A stretch of DNA of 32,583 nucleotides, from the NCBI GenBank assembly GCA_016795345.1, contig JAEUHO010000426.1:1-32583 (forward strand). Direction: 5' to 3'. The first letter of the stretch is position 1, and every line of letters begins with the position of its first letter. Positions 5,981 through 17,296 of this stretch are shown here, in pieces. The stretch comes from Planctomycetia bacterium (GTDB lineage: Bacteria; Planctomycetota; PLA2; JAEUHO01). Both the position numbers and the translations under genes were made by a program. The notes below the pieces were generated by a model. That model made no database searches, had not been told where the DNA came from, and saw only the letters and a program-made list of their open reading frames with translations.

Positions 5981-7396
5981 CTACTGGATCGGCGCGGTCA
6001 GCCGCGCGGCGCGCATGGCGAAGCGGAACCACAACGGCTTGCGCGCGAACGACGTGGGGTCGATGGGGTCGGCGCGCGCGAAGTCGGCCTCGAGCATCGC
6101 GGCCACGCGGTGGCAGAACTCGGCGTCGTGCACGACCGCGCTGATCTCGAAGTTGAGGAGGAAGGAGCGGTTGTCGAAGTTGTGGGTGCCGATGGTCGCC
6201 AACGCGTCGTCCACGAGGAGCACCTTCTGGTGCATGAAGCCCTCGCGGAAGGCGAGGAACTTGATCCCCATGCCCGCGAGGTCCTCCATGTAGAAGTACG
6301 ACGCGTAGCGGACGAGCTCCTTGTCGTTGTTGGCGGGCACGAGGACCCGGACGTCGACGCCGCGGAGGGCCGCGAGCCGGAGCGCGCTGATCAGCGCCGG
6401 CTCGGGGATGAAGTAGGGCGTGGCGAGCCAGACGCGCTTGCGCGCGGCGTTGAGCTGGTGCGTGTAGACGAGTTTGGCGATCTCGATCCGGTCGGCGGGC
6501 CCGGTGGCGAAGATCAGCGCCTGGCGGTCGGCTGTGCGCGCGACCTCGGAGCTCCAGTCGAGCTCCAGGAGGTCGCCGGTGGCCCAGCACCAGTCGAGGA
6601 GGAAGGCCGCCTGCGCGCCGAGCACGGCCGGCCCGGCGATGCGCACGTGCGTGTCGCGCCACGGGCCGATGGACCGGGAGAGGCCGAGGTACTCGTCGCC
6701 GACGTTGTGCCCGCCGACCCACGTCTCGAGCCCGTCCACCACGACGATCTTCCGGTGGTTGCGGAAGTTGAGCTGGAAGAAGTTGCTCCAGCCGCGGCGG
6801 GTGCCGAAGGGCCACGCCTGGACACCGGCGGCGCGCAGGTCGTGGAGGTAGGCCCGCGGCAGCCCCTTGCTGCCGATCTCGTCGTAGAGGAAGTGGACCT
6901 TCACGCCCCGGGCCGCGGCGGCGATCATGCGGTCCTTGAGGCGGCGGCCGAGGCCGTCGTCGCGGACGATGAAGAACTCGACGAGGACGTAGAGCCTCGC
7001 GCGGTCGATCCCCGCGGCGATGTCGGCGAACGTCGCCTCGCCGTCGACGAGGAGGTCCACGTCGTTGCCCTGGGTGAGCGGCCACGCGGCGAGGGCCTTG
7101 AGCGCCTCGTAGTCCGGGATGCGTCGCTCGACGTGCACCGCGTGGGCCGCGGCGTCGGCCCGCGCCTGGCGGACGAGCTCGTCCACGCGGTCGCGACGGT
7201 CGGCCCAGCGCTCGTAGTAGCCGGCAAACCGGCGGCGGCCGAACACCCACCACAGGGGGACCGTGACGTACGGCAGCGTGACGAGGGCGACGGCCCACGC
7301 GATCGCGCCCTGCGCGGTGCGGGTGTGGAGCACCGCCGAGATCGCCGACACGATGCCCAGGACGTGGAACGCGGCGGCGAGGACGGCCCAGACCAT
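5981..7396 (-). CDS. cls: Cardiolipin synthase
   Basis: This encodes 471 residues, the usual length for ClsA-type enzymes, which join two phosphatidylglycerols into cardiolipin and glycerol at the inner membrane. Two N-terminal helices (VWAVLAAAFHVLGIVSAISAV and AIAWAVALVTLPYVTVPLWWVF) anchor it. Both phospholipase-D HKD motifs are intact: NHRKIVVVD (His214, Lys216, Asp221) with GGHNVGDEY, and MHQKVLLVD (His389, Lys391, Asp396) with GTHNFDNRS. The ATG at 7396 is chosen because it begins the first helix and has a TTGGGG-17-TACGCT promoter just upstream. GGGAG lies 9 nt before it. It is a single-gene unit ending in TAG. Confidence 0.95.
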   Translation of the reverse strand: MVWAVLAAAFHVLGIVSAISAVLHTRTAQGAIAWAVALVTLPYVTVPLWWVFGRRRFAGYYERWADRRDRVDELVRQARADAAAHAVHVERRIPDYEALKALAAWPLTQGNDVDLLVDGEATFADIAAGIDRARLYVLVEFFIVRDDGLGRRLKDRMIAAAARGVKVHFLYDEIGSKGLPRAYLHDLRAAGVQAWPFGTRRGWSNFFQLNFRNHRKIVVVDGLETWVGGHNVGDEYLGLSRSIGPWRDTHVRIAGPAVLGAQAAFLLDWCWATGDLLELDWSSEVARTADRQALIFATGPADRIEIAKLVYTHQLNAARKRVWLATPYFIPEPALISALRLAALRGVDVRVLVPANNDKELVRYASYFYMEDLAGMGIKFLAFREGFMHQKVLLVDDALATIGTHNFDNRSFLLNFEISAVVHDAEFCHRVAAMLEADFARADPIDPTSFARKPLWFRFAMRAARLTAPIQ

Positions 7397-7425
7397 GCGC
7401 GGCGGCTCCCGGACGCGGTCCCGAG

Positions 7426-7454
7426 AGCGTAGCCGCCGCGCGCCACGACCCCAA
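7426..7454 (-). promoter_or_regulatory. Sigma-70-like promoter for cls
   Basis: On minus: TTGGGG (7454-7449), a 17-nt spacer and TACGCT (7431-7426). The predicted leader is about 23 nt. Confidence 0.5.
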
Positions 7455-7499
7455 CCGGCCGCCGTCGGGCCGGAGCGGAGTCCCGTCGATCGGGCGTGG

Positions 7500-10400
7500 T
7501 CAGCGAGCGCGTTCGTCGACCGGCAGCGGCAGGTCGACCGCGACGCGGCCCGCCGACGGGACGACCTCCCGCTCCTGCGTCGGATACGACGGCGCCGTCG
7601 GCGCGAAGCGACCCGCGAAGATCCGGTATCGCTCGGCGGCGAGCAGCATCGCGCGCGCCGACCCGTCGGCGCCGGTCTCGAACGAGCCGACGTGGATCCA
7701 CCGGCCGTCGCGCCATCCGAGCGCGCTCCCACGCGCGTTCGGCAGGGGCGCCGAGGTCGCGGCGTCCGTCACGCGCACGGAGAGCTCGACGGTCGGCGTC
7801 TCGGCGCCGTCGCCGCGCAGGCGCGGGAGCGCGAAGTCGACGACCGCCTCCGCCCCGCGTTCGAGGTCCACATCGACCTGCGCCGACGAGAACGGGCTGC
7901 CCGCGTCCGCGGTCCGGTCCGGCCGCGCCCCCCCGCTGACGATCACCCGGTGGAGCCCCGCGGCGAGCCCCGCGACGTCGTACCGTCCGTCGGCGTCGGT
8001 GACCACGGTCGCCACCCGTCCTCGCTCCGGCCGCGCGAGGTCAATCACGCTCACGGGTCGACCGCCGACGGGGGCGCCGCCCCTGGCCTCGACGACGCGT
8101 CCCCGCAGCGTCGCGCCGACGCCGGGCACGGCGAACTCGACGACGGGCCGCGCGGTCATCGGGACGTTCACGCGGACCTCGGTGGTCGCCGTGCCGTCGA
8201 CGAGACGACACGATCCGTACGGCCCCGGGAACAGCGAGGCCGTGGCCCGTCCGTCCGCGTCGGTCACCAGGTCGAGCCCGGCGACACGGGACGGCTCGTC
8301 CTCGCGCGGAGGCAGCGTCATCGCCCACCCGCCACCGGTGAGACGGACCCGCACGCCGGGACGTGGTGCGCCCCCGTCGTCGCGGACGACGAACGTCACC
8401 GGGACGCGCGCGGGCACCGGCACCTCGACCCGAGTCGCCTCGCCCGCGCGGAGCACGACCGGCCGGCTCCACGGTGCGTACACCGACCACGGGATCACAC
8501 GGCCGGCGTCGCGCCAGGACGCGCCCGGCACCACCCGCACCGCCCCCGCGGGCAATGCGCGCACGGTCGCGACCCCGGCACCGTCGGCCCGCGCGGTCCA
8601 CACGGTCCGTGCCTCCTCCGAGATCACCGAGAACGGGGTGCCGGGCGCGGGCTCGCCGCCCGGCCCGACGCCGACGATCTCGAGCCGGGCCTCCGGGGCC
8701 ATCGACAGCTCGACCGCGGGCTCGGGTGCGTCCACGTTCACGCCCGTGCGCGCGAAACCCTCCGCTTCCGCCACGAGGCGGTAGCGCCCGGGCGGGAGAC
8801 CCGCGACCGCGAAGGCCCCGTCGGGGCCGGACGCGACCGAGGCCAGCGCGGCGCGCACGTCGTCGAACGCGTCGGCCTCGGGGCCGCTCGCCAGCACGTG
8901 GACGACGGCACCCGTGGGCCCCGTCACGCGCCCCGCGATCACGGGCGCGGCCGCGCCGCGCGTCAACGACAGCCGCAGGTGCGGCGGCGGCGCCGTCGGG
9001 ACGCGCACGTCGTGGGTCACCGGCGTGTAGCCCGGCGCGAACACGTGCAGCCTCGCGGCGATCGACGTCGGGGCCGCATCGCCCAGGTCGAGCCACCCGA
9101 GGATCAGCCGGCCGGGGCGCGTGGTGACGCCGACCATCGCGACGACCGGCCGCAGCACCGCAAGGACCCGCCCGTCGTCGAGCGCGACGAGCACCGCGCG
9201 TGCGTCGCCGAGCGGCGCCCCGGACGCCGCGTCGATCACGTCCACCACCCACGAGGTTCGGGACAACCGCACCTCGATGCGATCCGAGCCCGGGACCACA
9301 TCCACGAATCGGTGCGCGTACCCGAACGCACTGACGGCTACGGCCGTCGTATCGGCGGGGAGGTGCTCGAAGCGGAACACCCCGTCCGCGTCCGTGAACG
9401 TCCGCATCGGCACCGACCGTCCCGCGACGAACGGCCGCGCGTAGCTCACGTTCGCCCCCGCGATCGGCGCGCCCTCGTCGTCCCGCACCGTCCCTTCGAG
9501 CGTCCGCCCCGCCGTGACGACGATCCGGAGGTCGTGCGGTGATCGCTCGTTCCCCATCGCGTGCTCGACCACCCCGAACCCCCGCTTGGTGAACACGAGC
9601 GCCAGGAGCCCGTCCGGCGCGCCCCGCACCGTGAACCGCCCCGCGTCGTCCGTGACCGCGAGCGCGACGCCGCCGGGCGGCACCTCGAATGCAAGGTCGC
9701 GCCGGAGGTCGTCGTCGAGCCCGTCCGCGTCGCGCCCGACGAGTCGCCGGACCCGAGGGCGCACCTCGACGCCGGCGACGGGTCGCCCCTGTTCGTCCAC
9801 GACGATCCCGTCCGCCAACGGCTCGGCCTCGCTCGAAACAGGCGCCCGGTCCCCTCCCCGGGACGCGAGGCCCGGCCCGACCGGCGCCAACGGCGGCGCG
9901 GCTGCGGTGGCCGCCTCGCTCGGCACGGCGGCGACCGGCGTGGGACGGGCGCCGTGGATCGAGTCGTCGGCCCGCTCACGGGCGACGAGCCACACGCCAC
10001 CGCCGAGCACGATCAGGGCGGTCGCGGCCACGACCAGGGCCTTCGCCACGCCCCCGCCTGTCACCGCTGCGACGACGTCGGCGGTGGCCCCGTCACCGAG
10101 CAGCGGCCCCAACGCGCCCGCCCACGCATCGCGACGACCCTCGTGGTGTGCGTCGAGGTCCTCGCGAAGGCGGACCAGGGCCCGCTGGAGACGAGACCGA
10201 ACGGTGTCGATCGGGACGTCCATCAACGCCGCGATCTCCGCCACCGACTTCCCCGCGTAGTAACGCCAGAGCACGACGGTGCGATACGGACCGTCCAGCC
10301 GCGCGACGGCTTCGACCAGGCTGCGCCGCGCCTCCTCGCGGACGAGCAATTCGGTCACGTCGGGAAGCGCCTCCGCGTGCGCCGCGACTCGCTCCCGCCG

Positions 10401-10634
10401 CGCTCGCCGGCCGTCGGATCGGAGCCGATCGAGCGCCAGGCGGCGCGCGATCGTCGCCAGCCAGGCGCGGAGGGATCCGGCGCGGCGAGGCTGTCGATCC
10501 TGCGCGATGACGAACGTGTCCTGAAGCACATCCTCGACGTCGCGATCCCGTCCGAGCACGCCGCGCGCGACCGCGCGGACGAATGCCGCGTGGGCGTGCG
10601 CGGCATTGGGGAGGTCGGGTGCCGGGTTCGGCAT
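7500..10634 (-). CDS. ECF sigma factor fused to a membrane helix and large beta-sandwich region
   Basis: This encodes 1,044 residues in one unbroken frame. Residues 10-80 are sigma-70 region 2 (HAAFVRAVARGVLGRDRDVE, then SLRAWLATIARRLALDRLR). Residues 100-160 are region 4 with its helix-turn-helix (LDGPYRTVVLWRYYAGKSVA, IAALMDVPIDTVRSRLQRA). A single membrane helix follows at about 198-217 (KALVVAATALIVLGGGVWLV). The remaining 800 residues, presumably outside the membrane, hold repeated carboxypeptidase-regulatory-like sandwiches: GRPVAGVEVRPR, GAPIAGANVSYARP, DADGVFRFEHLPADT, GPDGAFAVAGLPPGRYRLVAE, DADGRYDVAGLAAGLHRVIV. A repeat copy is read in frame just after the helix. Such fusions suggest a surface-sensing regulator released by proteolysis, which is inference. 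The ATG at 10634 has no SD but a TATGTT 6 nt away. Confidence 0.9.
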   Translation of the reverse strand: MPNPAPDLPNAAHAHAAFVRAVARGVLGRDRDVEDVLQDTFVIAQDRQPRRAGSLRAWLATIARRLALDRLRSDGRRARRERVAAHAEALPDVTELLVREEARRSLVEAVARLDGPYRTVVLWRYYAGKSVAEIAALMDVPIDTVRSRLQRALVRLREDLDAHHEGRRDAWAGALGPLLGDGATADVVAAVTGGGVAKALVVAATALIVLGGGVWLVARERADDSIHGARPTPVAAVPSEAATAAAPPLAPVGPGLASRGGDRAPVSSEAEPLADGIVVDEQGRPVAGVEVRPRVRRLVGRDADGLDDDLRRDLAFEVPPGGVALAVTDDAGRFTVRGAPDGLLALVFTKRGFGVVEHAMGNERSPHDLRIVVTAGRTLEGTVRDDEGAPIAGANVSYARPFVAGRSVPMRTFTDADGVFRFEHLPADTTAVAVSAFGYAHRFVDVVPGSDRIEVRLSRTSWVVDVIDAASGAPLGDARAVLVALDDGRVLAVLRPVVAMVGVTTRPGRLILGWLDLGDAAPTSIAARLHVFAPGYTPVTHDVRVPTAPPPHLRLSLTRGAAAPVIAGRVTGPTGAVVHVLASGPEADAFDDVRAALASVASGPDGAFAVAGLPPGRYRLVAEAEGFARTGVNVDAPEPAVELSMAPEARLEIVGVGPGGEPAPGTPFSVISEEARTVWTARADGAGVATVRALPAGAVRVVPGASWRDAGRVIPWSVYAPWSRPVVLRAGEATRVEVPVPARVPVTFVVRDDGGAPRPGVRVRLTGGGWAMTLPPREDEPSRVAGLDLVTDADGRATASLFPGPYGSCRLVDGTATTEVRVNVPMTARPVVEFAVPGVGATLRGRVVEARGGAPVGGRPVSVIDLARPERGRVATVVTDADGRYDVAGLAAGLHRVIVSGGARPDRTADAGSPFSSAQVDVDLERGAEAVVDFALPRLRGDGAETPTVELSVRVTDAATSAPLPNARGSALGWRDGRWIHVGSFETGADGSARAMLLAAERYRIFAGRFAPTAPSYPTQEREVVPSAGRVAVDLPLPVDERAR
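9859..9875 (+). repeat. Dispersed repeat arm inside the sigma-fusion gene
   Basis: CGGGACGCGAGGCCCGG lies within the minus-strand gene, where it is read as PGLASR in the low-complexity linker after the membrane helix. The match is as long as in intergenic copies. Confidence 0.7.
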
Positions 10635-10646: not shown

Positions 10647-10784
10647 GACGCCGCCGCGGTGCCTCGCGGATGCACCGGGACGTGCGAGGACACGTGCACC
10701 GGGGGGGCCACCGCCGAACGGCCACGGGAACCGGCTCGAGGCCGTCATGGCAGGCCGACGGGCGGAAGCCGAGATCGACGCCCG

Positions 10785-10830: not shown

Positions 10831-10846
10831 CCGGGCCTCGCGGTCA
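10831..10846 (-). repeat. Dispersed repeat arm fused to a stop codon
   Basis: On minus: TGACCGCGAGGCCCGG, where TGA is the stop of the DUF707 gene. Confidence 0.75.
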
Positions 10847-11740
10847 GGCGAGCGGGTCGCCGCGCCAGCGGGCCCAGAGACGGGCGAGCGGGCCGCGGGC
10901 CGCGCGCACCGGCGCCGAGCGGAGCCACGCCGCCGCGTCGAGGTGCTGGTCGTACAGCAGGCGCTCGCGGAGGTGCGGCCGCTCCTCGAAGAGCCACGCC
11001 CAGCCGCCAAGCAGCGCGTCGAGGAAGCCGGGCGAGGCCTCGGTGAGCGTCGCGCCGGCGAGGTCGACGCCGCCGAGCGTCTTGCGGAGCGACCGCGCGT
11101 CGTAGCGGCGGTGCATCGCGCGCATCTCGGCGCGCAGGACGCGGTCGTCGGCCCGCGTGCGCCGCGAGCCCACCGGCCGGTCGTGGCGCACCGTGACGTC
11201 GTCCATGACGTAGAGGCCGCGGTAGTCGAGCAGACGCCCCCACGCGTCGTCGAGGCCCCAGCCGTGGCCGGTCGGGCCCGCGGAGAACGTCGGGAGCAGC
11301 GCCTCGAGCACGTCGCGACGGAAACACGGCGCCATGATCTCGACGAACGTCGTCGCGCGGGCGCGGAAGGCGCGGTTGCGCAGCGTCGTCACGTGGGAGA
11401 ACTGCGCGTCCTCGGCGAGCGCGGGCGCCGCGAGCGCGGCGTCGTGCGCGACGCAGGCGGCGAGGAAGCGGTCGATCGTCGCGGCGTCGGCGCCGAGGTC
11501 GTCGTCGGGGAGCCAGACGTGGTCGTAGGCACGCCAGGCCCGTTCGTCGGCGAGGAGGCGCGCGAGCCCCGCCCACTTCCCGCCCGGCAGCGTGCGCGCG
11601 AGCGAGGGGAGGTCGTCGGCCGCGGGCGCGTCGGCGTAGGGGCAGCGCCAGAGGTCGAAGGTGCGGGGCGCGTCGCCCGCGACCCACGTGGGGTGGAGCG
11701 AGGCGGGCCCGCAGCGCACGACGACGAGGTGGCGCCTCAT
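10844..11740 (-). CDS. DUF707-like glycosyltransferase-fold protein
   Basis: This encodes 298 residues resembling DUF707 proteins, which have a glycosyltransferase-like layout. It starts with strand RRHLVVVRCG, has an acidic DDD at residues 79-81 (YDHVWLPDDDLGADAATIDRFL) in the place of the nucleotide-sugar metal site, then FVEIMAPCFRRDVLEALLPTF and GHGWGLDDAWGRLL, typical of the family. No membrane helix. Its ATG overlaps the stop of glf by 4 bp (ATGA), so translation is coupled. Together with glf and the next gene it probably adds or modifies sugars, perhaps galactofuranose, on a surface glycan. Catalytic activity of the family is not firmly established. Confidence 0.82.
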   Translation of the reverse strand: MRRHLVVVRCGPASLHPTWVAGDAPRTFDLWRCPYADAPAADDLPSLARTLPGGKWAGLARLLADERAWRAYDHVWLPDDDLGADAATIDRFLAACVAHDAALAAPALAEDAQFSHVTTLRNRAFRARATTFVEIMAPCFRRDVLEALLPTFSAGPTGHGWGLDDAWGRLLDYRGLYVMDDVTVRHDRPVGSRRTRADDRVLRAEMRAMHRRYDARSLRKTLGGVDLAGATLTEASPGFLDALLGGWAWLFEERPHLRERLLYDQHLDAAAWLRSAPVRAARGPLARLWARWRGDPLA

Positions 11741-12903
11741 GTCGCGGCGCCCTCGGCCGGCGGCGCGTCGCCCGCGAGCCACGCCTCGGCGCTCCCGATG
11801 GACTGCGCGACCACCTGGTCCATGTTGAGGTACCGGTAGGTGCCGCAGCGGCCCACGAAGCGCACCTTCGGCTCGCCCGCGGCGAGCGCGCGGTAGCGGG
11901 CGTACAGCGCGGCGTTGCGGCCGTCGCCGTCGGGGACGGGGTAGTAGCGCTCGCCCCCGTTGTCGCGCGCGTCGCAGGGCTCCTCGGTCGTGACGGTGCG
12001 CGATCCCGTCGCGCGGACGACGTGGGCGGGCAGCCGCGCCCAGTCCGAGAGGCGGGTGTGCGGCGAGGCGTCGGCGAGGTTCACCTGCGCCGTCGGGCCG
12101 ACGACCTCGTCCGACGGGACGGCGGCGTGGTGGAAGCGGATCGAGCGGTACGGGAGCGGGCCGTACACCTCGCCGAAGTACGCGTCGATGGAGAGGCTCG
12201 CGAAGCAGACGTCGTGGCCCGCGAGCATCGAGCGGTCGAACGCGACGCCGGTCGAGACGCGGACGAGCGGGTGGTCGAGCATGCGGGCCACGAGGTCGGT
12301 GTAGCCGTCGCGCGGCAGCGCCTGGAAGCGGTCGTCGGGGAAGTAGCGGTCCTCGTCGTCGTGGCGCACGGGGATCCGGCGGACCACGGCGGCGTCGAGG
12401 GCCTCGAGCTCGACGCCCCACATCTTCCGCGAGTAGGGCCGGTAGAGGAGGTCGGCGAGGCGGACGCCGACGCGCGCGTTCAGCCACTCGGCCGCGTTGC
12501 GGGGCGAAAGGTTCGGGACGACCACCGTCGCGAGGAACGCCCGCGCGGCCTCCGCGTCGGGGAGGTCCACGTCGAAGACGCGCGCGACGGTCGTGCGGTT
12601 GACGGGCAACGGCACGAAGCCGCGGCCGTCGGGCCGGCGCACCGTCACGCGGTGCTCGTACGGCACGAACGCCGCGAACCGCCGCAGGAAGTCCATGACC
12701 CGTGGGCTGTTCGTGTGGAAGAGGTGCGGCCCGTAGGCGTGGCGGCGCACGCCGGTCGCGTCGACCTCGTCGAACACGTTCCCCGCGACGTGGGGCCGGC
12801 GCTCGACCACCTCGACGCGCACGCCGCGGTCGGCGAGCACGCGGGCGTGCGTCGCGCCGGCGAGGCCGGCGCCGACCACGAGCGCGGAGCGGGACGGGGG
12901 CAT
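11737..12903 (-). CDS. glf: UDP-galactopyranose mutase
   Basis: This encodes 388 residues. The flavoenzyme converts UDP-galactopyranose to UDP-galactofuranose in the cytoplasm, feeding surface polysaccharides. The FAD-binding start SALVVGAGLAGATHARVLA and the acidic end of the second strand (VEVVERRPHVAGNVFDE) are clear, followed by GPHLFHTNSPRVMDFL, the substrate-region RPYSRKMWGVE, FPDDRFQALPRDGYTDL and the C-terminal EPKVRFVGRCGTYRYLNMDQVV. Length is normal. ATG at 12903 lies 15 bp after the stop of the preceding gene, with a weak SD. It is the middle gene of a three-gene operon. Confidence 0.95.
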   Translation of the reverse strand: MPPSRSALVVGAGLAGATHARVLADRGVRVEVVERRPHVAGNVFDEVDATGVRRHAYGPHLFHTNSPRVMDFLRRFAAFVPYEHRVTVRRPDGRGFVPLPVNRTTVARVFDVDLPDAEAARAFLATVVVPNLSPRNAAEWLNARVGVRLADLLYRPYSRKMWGVELEALDAAVVRRIPVRHDDEDRYFPDDRFQALPRDGYTDLVARMLDHPLVRVSTGVAFDRSMLAGHDVCFASLSIDAYFGEVYGPLPYRSIRFHHAAVPSDEVVGPTAQVNLADASPHTRLSDWARLPAHVVRATGSRTVTTEEPCDARDNGGERYYPVPDGDGRNAALYARYRALAAGEPKVRFVGRCGTYRYLNMDQVVAQSIGSAEAWLAGDAPPAEGAAT

Positions 12904-12918
12904 CGCGCGTCGTCCCGT

Positions 12919-13908
12919 TCAGAGGTTCGGGCCGGGGCGCAGCGTCACGCGCGGCCGGCGGCGACGCTTCGGGAACCAGCGACGCAGCCGGAACCACCGC
13001 TTGACCGGCAGCGGGGGCCAGCCCCAGGTGGCGCCGTCATCGAGGGCCTGCGCGCGGTCGTGGGCGCCGGCCACCGCGTCGAGGAGCGGGACGAGCGCGG
13101 GCCGCGCGCGGAGCAGGGCCTCGTAGGCCGCGAGCACGTCCGTCGTGTCGAGGAGCTCCCGCTGGGAGTAGAAGGCGAAGTGCGCCGCGACTGTGTCGGT
13201 CACGAAGCAGTTGCGCCGCCGCAGCCGCGTCGCCATCGTCGCGCTCAGCTCCTCCTCCTCGTCGGTCCCGACGACGCCGCCGGCGAGCGCCATGTCGCGG
13301 CCGAACCACGAGATGCAGTTGATCGAGAAGCGGTTGAGCGCGATCTCGACCGGGCCGCAGTGGAGCCGCGCCGCCTCGCCCCGGCGGAACAGGTCGAGCC
13401 CGAGGCGGTGCAGGGCCAGCGCGAAGTCGGGGTCGCGCCAGCCGACCTTGCAGAGGCAGGTCGTGGTGACCGGGCGCGACGCCACGATCTTCCCGAACGC
13501 CTGGAGGATGTTCGAGCAGACCGCGTTGTTGAGCACCAGCGGGCTGACCATGAAGTACGCGGGGTTCGCCACGCGGAAGGCGAGGAGCGTCTCGAAGAAG
13601 CCGGGCTCGAGCCACACGACGTCGTCGTCGAGGCGCACGTAGACGGTGTCGTCGTCCATGGCGAGCCGGCTGAACGCCCCGATGGCCTCGACCGACGGCT
13701 TCGCGCCCTCTGGGTGCGGCACGAGGCGCACCCGCGGGTCGAGCCGGGCGACCTCGTCGAAGAACGCGAGGTCCGCCGGCACGGCGGTGTTCACCCAGAG
13801 GTCGTAGCGGTCCACGAGGCCCGACGCGAGCACCTGCGGCACGAGGAGCCGCAGGTAGCGCCGCCGCCCCGCCGGGGTCACGCACACGACCTTGTGGGTT
13901 CCGAACAC
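12919..13908 (-). CDS. Putative glycosyltransferase, first gene of glycan operon
   Basis: This encodes 329 residues. The start KVVCVTPAGRRRYLRLLVPQ and YDLWVNTAVPADLAFFDEV resemble the N-terminal Rossmann-like half of a GT-A enzyme, and VYVRLDDDVVWLEPGFFETLL has an Asp triplet (94-96) placed like the metal-binding DxD. Six Cys are spread through the middle. The C-terminus is strongly basic (KRWFRLRRWFPKRRRRPR) and could sit on the membrane surface. I cannot assign a CAZy family. GTG at 13908 is preceded by GAGGAG at 7 nt. Its neighbour glf suggests galactofuranose as donor, by context only. Confidence 0.78.
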   Translation of the reverse strand: MFGTHKVVCVTPAGRRRYLRLLVPQVLASGLVDRYDLWVNTAVPADLAFFDEVARLDPRVRLVPHPEGAKPSVEAIGAFSRLAMDDDTVYVRLDDDVVWLEPGFFETLLAFRVANPAYFMVSPLVLNNAVCSNILQAFGKIVASRPVTTTCLCKVGWRDPDFALALHRLGLDLFRRGEAARLHCGPVEIALNRFSINCISWFGRDMALAGGVVGTDEEEELSATMATRLRRRNCFVTDTVAAHFAFYSQRELLDTTDVLAAYEALLRARPALVPLLDAVAGAHDRAQALDDGATWGWPPLPVKRWFRLRRWFPKRRRRPRVTLRPGPNL

Positions 13909-15658: not shown

Positions 15659-17296
15659 ATGGCCGTCCCCCCGCTGCGCGCCCGGCCCGCGTTCGCCGCG
15701 CTCGCCGCCCACCACGCGGCGGCCGGCGGCCGCACGCTCCGCGAGCTGTTCGCGGCCGACCCGGGCCGCGGTGAGCGCCTGACGGCGGAGGGCGCGGGCG
15801 TCTTCCTCGACTACGCGAAGCAGCGCGTCACCGACGAGACGATGGCCCTGCTGCTGCGGCTCGCGGACGAGAGCGGCCTCGCCGCCCGGACCGCGGCGAT
15901 GTTCGCGGGCGAGCGCATCAACACGACGGAGGGCCGCGCGGTCCTCCACGTGGCGCTGCGCGCGCCGCGCGGCGCGCGGATCGTCGTGGACGGCGAGGAC
16001 GTCGTGCCGAAGGTGCACGAGGTGCTCGACCGCATGGCCGCGTTCGCCGACCGCGTGCGCGACGGCGCGTGGGCGGGGCACACGGGGAAGCGGATCCGCG
16101 CCGTCGTCAACGTCGGGATCGGCGGGAGCGACCTCGGGCCGGTGATGGCCCACCGCGCGCTGCGCCCCTGGGCCGACCCGTCGCTCGTGTTCCGCTTCGT
16201 CTCGAACGTGGACGCGACGGACCTCGTCGAGGCGACCCGCGGCCTCGACCCGGCCGAGACGCTGTTCGTCGTCGCGTCGAAGACCTTCACGACGCAGGAG
16301 ACCATGACGAACGCGGAGAGCGCGCGCGCCTGGCTGCTGCGCGGCCTCGGCGGCGACGCCCGCGCGGTGGCGCGCCACTTCGTCGCCGTCTCGACCGACG
16401 CGGCGCGCGTCAAGGCGTTCGGCATCGACCCCGCGAACATGTTCGGCTTCTGGGACTGGGTCGGCGGCCGCTACTCCATGGACTCGGCCATCGGCCTCTC
16501 GACGATGATCGCCGTGGGCCCGGCGCGCTTCCGCGAGCTGCTCGCGGGCTTCCACGCCATGGACGAGCACTTCCGCACCGCGCCGCCCGCGCGCAACCTG
16601 CCGGTGCTGAAGGCGCTGCTGTCGGTCTGGAACGTGAACTTCCTCGGGGCGACCTCGACGGCGGTCCTGCCGTACGACCAGTACCTCGAGCGGTTCCCCG
16701 CCTACCTGCAGCAGCTCGCGATGGAGAGCAACGGCAAACGCGTCCGGCTCGACGGCACCGCCGTCGACCACGACACCTGCCCCGTGTGGTGGGGCGAGCC
16801 CGGCACGAACGGCCAGCACTCCTTCTACCAGCTGCTCCACCAGGGCACGCGCGTCGTGCCCGTGGACTTCCTCGCGTGCGAACGGCCGGTCCACGACGTC
16901 GGCCGCCACCACGCGATGCTCCTCGCGAACGTCGTCGCGCAGGGCGAGGCCCTCGCGTTCGGGCGCACGGCGGCCGAGGTCCGCGCCGAGGGCACGCCCG
17001 AGGCCCTCGTCCCCCACCGCGTGTTCGAGGGCAACCGCCCGTCGAGCACGCTCCTCCTCGAGCGCCTCTCGCCCCACGCCCTCGGCGCGCTCGTCGCGCT
17101 CTACGAGCACCAGGTGTTCGTCGAGGGCACGCTGTGGGGCGTCAACTCGTTCGACCAATGGGGCGTCGAGCTCGGCAAGGTGCTCGCGTCGCGCGTCCTC
17201 GCGGAGCTCGAGGCCGACGCGCCGCCGGCCCCCGCCCACGACGGCTCGACGAACGCGCTGATCCGCCGGCTGCGCCGCGCGCGCGGCGCGCGCTGA
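15659..17296 (+). CDS. pgi: Glucose-6-phosphate isomerase
   Basis: This encodes 545 residues, normal for the E. coli-type enzyme that interconverts glucose-6-P and fructose-6-P. Visible signatures: [30 protein letters not shown] (phosphate-binding loop), [15 protein letters not shown], the catalytic Glu in MESNGKRV, His in [15 protein letters not shown], and the C-terminal [13 protein letters not shown] with the catalytic Lys. ATG at 15659 follows GGAG by 6 nt (GCTCCC). It is second in the tal-pgi operon and converges with the ROK kinase gene 6 bp away; both stops lie in the palindrome TGACCGCGGTCA. Pairing with tal suggests coordinated fructose-6-P handling. Confidence 0.97.

Follow-up and report, generated by a model that had tools for sequence, protein, structure and literature searches.

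Sigma factors are usually restrained by a separate anti-sigma protein. The nearest characterised protein to the one described here is IutY of Pseudomonas putida (ECF243), a sigma/anti-sigma hybrid of cell-surface signalling from which Prc and RseP release a sigma fragment of ~23 kDa (PMC5411451, PMC8999054). The ECF52 (SCO4117 of Streptomyces coelicolor), ECF48 and ECF53 factors have a C-terminal transmembrane (TM) segment and a carbohydrate-binding or proline-rich external part; they are positively autoregulated, and their release by proteolysis has been proposed (PMC5826349, PMC8999054). In planctomycetes, the WD40-ECF factors form a lineage-specific expansion with long C-terminal extensions (PMC8567305). 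In the RsgI/SigI systems of Clostridium thermocellum, a family of paralogous transmembrane regulators combines a single cytoplasmic module with varied external sensor domains, and RseP releases RsgI (PMC12203970).

The window analysed here is a stretch of 32,583 nucleotides from a planctomycete draft genome (4.9 Mb, 614 contigs, 88% complete). This genome holds a planctomycete-type PSD1 family that is absent from 14 control genomes, as would fit Planctomycetota; its 16S was not found, a genome-contig scan returned only a Streptomyces ECF gene and a plasmid search gave no match. The gene of interest is a single open frame with no internal stop (Table 1), and its chosen ATG matches the aligned start of its relatives. 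Both sigma domains are complete in Pfam, with Sigma70_r2 matched over profile positions 3-70 of 71 (6e-12) and Sigma70_r4_2 over positions 2-54 of 54 (2e-13), and the first 160 residues belong to the sigma70-ECF superfamily of NCBIfam (TIGR02937, 74.1 bits against a cut-off of 42.9). With regions 2 and 4 complete and no region 3, this is an ECF (sigma-70 group 4) factor. AlphaFold, run on residues 1-239 with 75 relatives, gave a mean pLDDT of 85.6 for the sigma part, which resembles ECF sigma structures in Foldseek; the model contains a juxtamembrane helix (168-175) and a helix at 195-225. With a 19-residue hydropathy scale only one segment exceeds 1.6, at residues 199-217 (mean 2.37), and 827 residues lie beyond it. 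These external residues form domains of the CarboxypepD_reg or prealbumin-like type, with six CarboxypepD_reg stretches in Pfam (7e-46). The external part is all-beta, with most blocks at pLDDT 70-92, and residues 174-271 fall below 50 (AlphaFold, six full-length relatives); its Foldseek matches are pilins, SpaA and Cna B repeats, all strings of sandwich domains. The linker at 220-271 is a candidate site-1 cleavage region.

Table 1. Features of the tethered sigma gene and its neighbours, in window positions
Feature	Position	Strand	Basis or remark
Whole gene	7500..10634	-	1044 aa; ATG 10632-10634, stop 7500-7502
ECF sigma region 2, residues 13-76	10407..10598	-	Pfam PF04542 and whole-genome match
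ECF sigma region 4, residues 104-156	10167..10325	-	Pfam PF08281; Foldseek to ECF sigma structures
Conserved juxtamembrane helix, residues 168-179	10098..10133	-	column conservation; no Pfam match
GTG codon 196, aligned with the family internal start	10047..10049	-	weak Shine-Dalgarno here
TM helix, residues 199-217	9984..10040	-	hydropathy; helix 195-225 in model
External linker, low-complexity, predicted disordered, residues 220-271	9822..9977	-	pLDDT
External part, about eight tandem beta-sandwich domains, residues 272-1044	7503..9821	-	Pfam, AlphaFold, Foldseek
-35-type motif, weak match CGAGCCGGTTCCCG	10725..10738	-	104 nt upstream of ATG
Cardiolipin synthase-like PLD, DUF707, UDP-galactopyranose mutase, phosphoglucose isomerase	5981..7732, 10844..12997, 11737..12903, 15659..17296	-, -, -, +	

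The sigma-TM-sandwich fusion is therefore real, as an initial annotation made from the DNA letters had observed: its intact regions 2 and 4, single helix at about 198-217 and roughly 800 external residues of sandwich domains were all recovered, and helix 199-217 supports an architecture in which the sigma part would be anchored at the membrane. Domain order, the unbroken frame and their conservation across the family are established at the level of sequence. The orientation of the protein we infer, with the sigma part inside because sigma function requires it; the charges flanking the helix are balanced in the window protein (0/0), and the family is positive-inside on average (+0.96 in, -0.56 out, 158 genes).

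Like IutY, the window protein combines an ECF sigma factor, a single TM helix and an extracytoplasmic domain in one chain. However, the outside of IutY is a FecR-like anti-sigma domain, whereas the window protein has ~800 aa of CarboxypepD_reg type outside, matched to sandwich families only, and many paralogues; no such anti-sigma domain was found among 62 members. The gene for IutY adjoins a TonB-dependent receptor gene, whereas the window frames tested include no TonB-dependent or other receptor gene. Here the same strand carries a PLD/cardiolipin-synthase gene on the downstream side, and upstream of the sigma gene are those for DUF707 and UDP-galactopyranose mutase (GLF); together with the phosphoglucose isomerase gene on the opposite strand they perhaps make up a cell-surface polysaccharide region. 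In ECF52, ECF48 and ECF53 the sigma part and the TM are separated by a zinc-finger anti-sigma domain, which none of 75 N-terminal parts of our family has, and ECF52 is described as exclusive to Actinobacteria. In place of the WD40 domains of the WD40-ECF factors there are beta-sandwich domains and one TM helix. RsgI acts as a separate anti-sigma factor, whereas here the sigma itself is tethered. Membership of the IutY group, of ECF52 and of the WD40-ECF factors fails on the features tested; the large family to which the protein belongs has three further features that make it testable, a promoter motif, a conserved internal start signal and the joining of one external module to two sigma lineages. 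In agreement with the initial annotation, which had noted no adjacent anti-sigma gene, Pfam detected no anti-sigma domain in the window protein or in the neighbouring frames tested. A fused anti-sigma domain was likewise rejected for the family, since no anti-sigma family was matched in the 75 N-terminal parts including the linker or in the 62 external parts. Scans for sigma-70 promoters and terminators were empty.

Family loci were assembled by fetching similar sigma genes from 40 related genomes. Tethering with a single TM near residue 200 was found in 93 of the 116 sigma frames in the sampled loci, and complete external parts have a median length of 795 aa (range 282-1237). In the 119 genomes searched from this phylum, the sigma, linker and TM unit has its strong matches concentrated in some families, which often hold more than 10 per genome; in the window's own genome ~12 of 41 sigma region-2 matches have a TM after the sigma part. 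The linker from region 4 to the TM helix is about 40 aa long, with the consensus LD..HGGDRRAW..ALLPLA followed by a Gly-rich spacer and M[ST]xKxK. The window protein belongs to the family that we define as Class A, as it has both the sigma clade (24 rows, 99% SH-aLRT in the sigma tree) and the linker signature (RRAW..ALLPLA, then TM), although its own linker reads W171 and ALGPLL against the family RRAWxxALLPLA. CarboxypepD_reg was matched in 52 of the 62 external parts, SBP_bac_5 in one and an FGE-sulfatase-like domain in two. Such varied domains would suit a sensor role, in line with the earlier suggestion that sensor and anchor share one chain. A large family that does without an anti-sigma protein would place sensor, anchor and transcription factor in a single polypeptide.

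Several individual members of the family are worth recording. The tethered sigma at L098:3117-5330 (+) bears the SBP_bac_5 match (7e-47), and its external part looks like an oligopeptide or nickel receptor; L103:3106-5220 (+) has one of the two FGE-sulfatase-like external domains. A short tethered sigma at L125:1752-2918 (+) ends in DQTVTDVIKTLSIQTGNNLLIS..., which is secretin/STN-like by eye and has no Pfam match at 1e-6. Tethered sigma genes are often adjacent, in tandem or divergent (L118, L120, L113, L083, L097, L110), as where L118:4629-7142 (-) adjoins L118:7952-11113 (+), and a third sigma lineage occurs among the paired genes (the second genes of L118 and L113). Positions 6189-9000 on the reverse complement of L088 encode an apparent TM-anchored CarboxypepD_reg protein without sigma, at a locus shared with a tethered sigma, and this stand-alone protein may be a natural sigma-less counterpart.

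The external module of the window protein is not confined to one type of sigma factor. It is homologous over its full length to those of L119, L120, L121 and L062 (30-33% identity), and the external parts of L119-L121 are comparably related to one another (33-35%). The sigma parts of these four proteins are 47-71% identical mutually, against 31-33% to the window, and a long branch separates the two sigma lineages in the sigma tree. The homology of the external parts, together with the differing sigma lineages, therefore indicates that the external module has been joined to different sigma factors; a six-row tree of that module fits a single change of sigma type rather than several. The L119, L120, L121 and L062 genes also carry the internal Shine-Dalgarno (SD) element described below, and the TM-plus-outside unit may thus have moved together with its own start. 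One external module on two unrelated sigma lineages shows that receptors and sigma factors are interchangeable.

A motif ahead of its own gene typically signals an autoregulated ECF factor. Among 163 family genes, 53 have TGAACC in their upstream region, where 5.1 would be expected. The 40 mapped occurrences read TGAACCG(A/G)TT(C/T)C, followed by a CGGC element ~20 nt from the motif start. In 30 of them the distance to the start codon is 39-45 nt, and across the family the motif usually stands 35-45 nt ahead of the ATG. The strict motif is rare in whole genomes: of its 25 matches, 7 stand 27-42 nt before a tethered sigma gene and most are not in front of sigma genes, and the window's own genome has 7 matches against 0 for the reversed pattern. 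The motif is present in the family, implying that tethered sigma genes may be auto- or cross-activated, and its use by these sigma factors is plausible. A promoter shared by this gene and others, for which the initial annotation had proposed a motif search, therefore exists for the family as TGAACCG-N-TTC, but the window gene has only the weak match listed in Table 1, with a p of ~0.02 for one 150-nt region that is unconvincing alone. Its nearest relative, L118, has a moderate match 41 nt upstream. The shared motif offers a ready reporter with which the scheme set out below could be tested. Four contigs of one genome (C34, C366, C367 and C599 of G000; L250, L252, L253 and L256) carry the near-identical sequence TGAACCGATTTCGGGCGAGCG(C/T)CCGGGAGGCGCATCGCGAGGA; two of the four copies are at contig ends and none is ahead of a sigma gene, and they look like a repeat element.

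Our preferred reading, to which we give a probability of roughly 0.55, is that the protein is a transmembrane receptor in one piece that frees its sigma part, most likely by regulated intramembrane proteolysis. In this scheme the N-terminal ECF sigma would be cytoplasmic. A short conserved linker and a single helix would connect it to some eight sandwich domains that form a stalk beyond the inner membrane, and this tethering would keep the sigma part from acting effectively. A periplasmic location and a ligand are assumed. A signal on the external part would make the disordered stretch next to the membrane accessible to a periplasmic protease; a site-2 protease of the RseP type would then cut the helix, and a sigma fragment of ~20 kDa would bind RNA polymerase, each of these steps by analogy with IutY; the freed sigma would transcribe from promoters of the TGAACCG-N-TTC/CGGC type, including those of the family's own genes. 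This reading is favoured by the intact sigma regions, the single TM helix and a full-length collinear relative, by a large family with the same domain order, sensor-like variable outside parts and no anti-sigma domain, and by the family promoter motif. The genome also encodes RseP-like M50 (S2P) and Prc-like S41 proteases, but their presence says little because both were near-universal in control genomes. Against it stand the weak and oddly placed motif of the window gene, the preponderance of strict motif matches away from sigma genes and the balanced charges around the helix of the window copy. The initial annotation held that the way in which such tethered ECF factors are released is not established; this does not wholly stand, since IutY provides a precedent (PMC5411451, PMC8999054).

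Compatible with the one-piece receptor, and given about even odds for the family, is a gene with two nested products, the sigma-bearing receptor and a more abundant sigma-less one. Most relatives have an ATG or GTG preceded by GGAG(G) exactly at the junction of sigma and TM. Using the anti-SD of relatives' 16S, whose tails end in the standard sequence, we obtained a mean SD energy of -8.2 at the junction in 74 genes, compared with -3.9 at the actual gene starts and -2.9 over 4319 in-frame start-like codons elsewhere, and upstream glycine codons are GGA in 48% against 12%. Synonymous recoding of the junction gave -6.0 on average (P 3.5e-11, uncorrected for shared ancestry, although synonymous sites should be saturated at these distances). 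As recoded sequences are weaker than the real ones, nucleotides are conserved here beyond what the amino acids alone require. A further set of 67 genes, most of them from other families, showed the signal again (-5.7 against -2.8; recoded -4.6, P 1.5e-4, likewise uncorrected; GGA 52% against 17%), and the direction of the signal was the same whether the nearest, first or last ATG/GTG was taken. In the pooled sets, GGAG/AGGA/GAGG peaks at -12 (47% against 1.5% at 1222 other in-frame ATGs), a lysine follows the junction ATG within 5 residues in 83% against 10%, the downstream codons are A-rich and the second residues small. No such signal was seen in serine/threonine kinases with an internal TM (n=15), and genes of the other sigma lineage share the SD.

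The conserved SD and start therefore predict a second, sigma-less protein in most members, which should consist of the helix and the external part and would compete for ligand, partners or protease; by diluting each receptor, such a twin would offer a simple means to set a signalling threshold. The signal could instead be a relic of gene fusion, against which weighs the saturation of synonymous sites at 35-40% protein identity. For the window copy two products are improbable: the SD of its GTG codon 196 is no better than the synonymous expectation (dG -6.0 against -6.9), and an internal start is not supported by its sequence. An internal start between the sigma and sandwich parts had been named beforehand as a finding that would overturn the fusion; the signal holds in most relatives and not in the window copy, and even where present it would add a second product and leave the fusion standing because there is no stop codon there. 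Together with the exchange of modules, these patterns suggest, more tentatively, a whole class with dozens of sigma receptors per genome, in which nested products, cross-activation of one receptor gene by another through closely similar promoters and the swapping of external modules between sigma lineages would be combined.

It is unlikely, in our estimate, that the sigma part acts while still tethered, as do the membrane-bound one-component regulators CadC and ToxR, with the signal altering its exposure or oligomeric state and polymerase being recruited at the membrane. A cleavage motif cannot be shown, and the conserved helix beside the membrane (W171, ALLPLA) might act as a switch within the chain. 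However, a sigma factor has to reach distant promoters together with polymerase, the disordered linker that follows the TM helix looks cleavable, and IutY, the only sigma-TM-periplasm protein studied experimentally, is activated by regulated intramembrane proteolysis (PMC5411451).

Much less probable still is that the internal SD-like element is a programmed +1 frameshift site freeing the sigma part, or a pause that serves membrane targeting. Of 74 genes, 52 have a +1-frame stop close to this element, but such stops accompany other ATGs in 59% of cases, and most of the excess comes from ATGA overlap; we therefore rejected the frameshift, as +1 stops are otherwise barely denser than at other ATGs. 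The SD spacing is that of initiation, which speaks against both forms, and the pause was rejected since kinases of the same topology lack the element, albeit in a sample of only 15.

Finally, that the fusion is an artefact of assembly or frameshift, or a gene in decay, is negligible even for a draft genome in 614 contigs: a relative from another genus aligns collinearly to query 8-1038 (37% identity) and so excludes an assembly chimera, collinear relatives occur in several genera, and third-position GC stays at 0.83-0.98 along the whole gene, so that no frameshift of the kind the initial annotation had asked about is visible between the sigma and sandwich parts. The fusion is in frame in every complete family member examined except L124:2071-6161 (+), whose external part is off-frame from its sigma and which is either a broken gene or a sequencing error.
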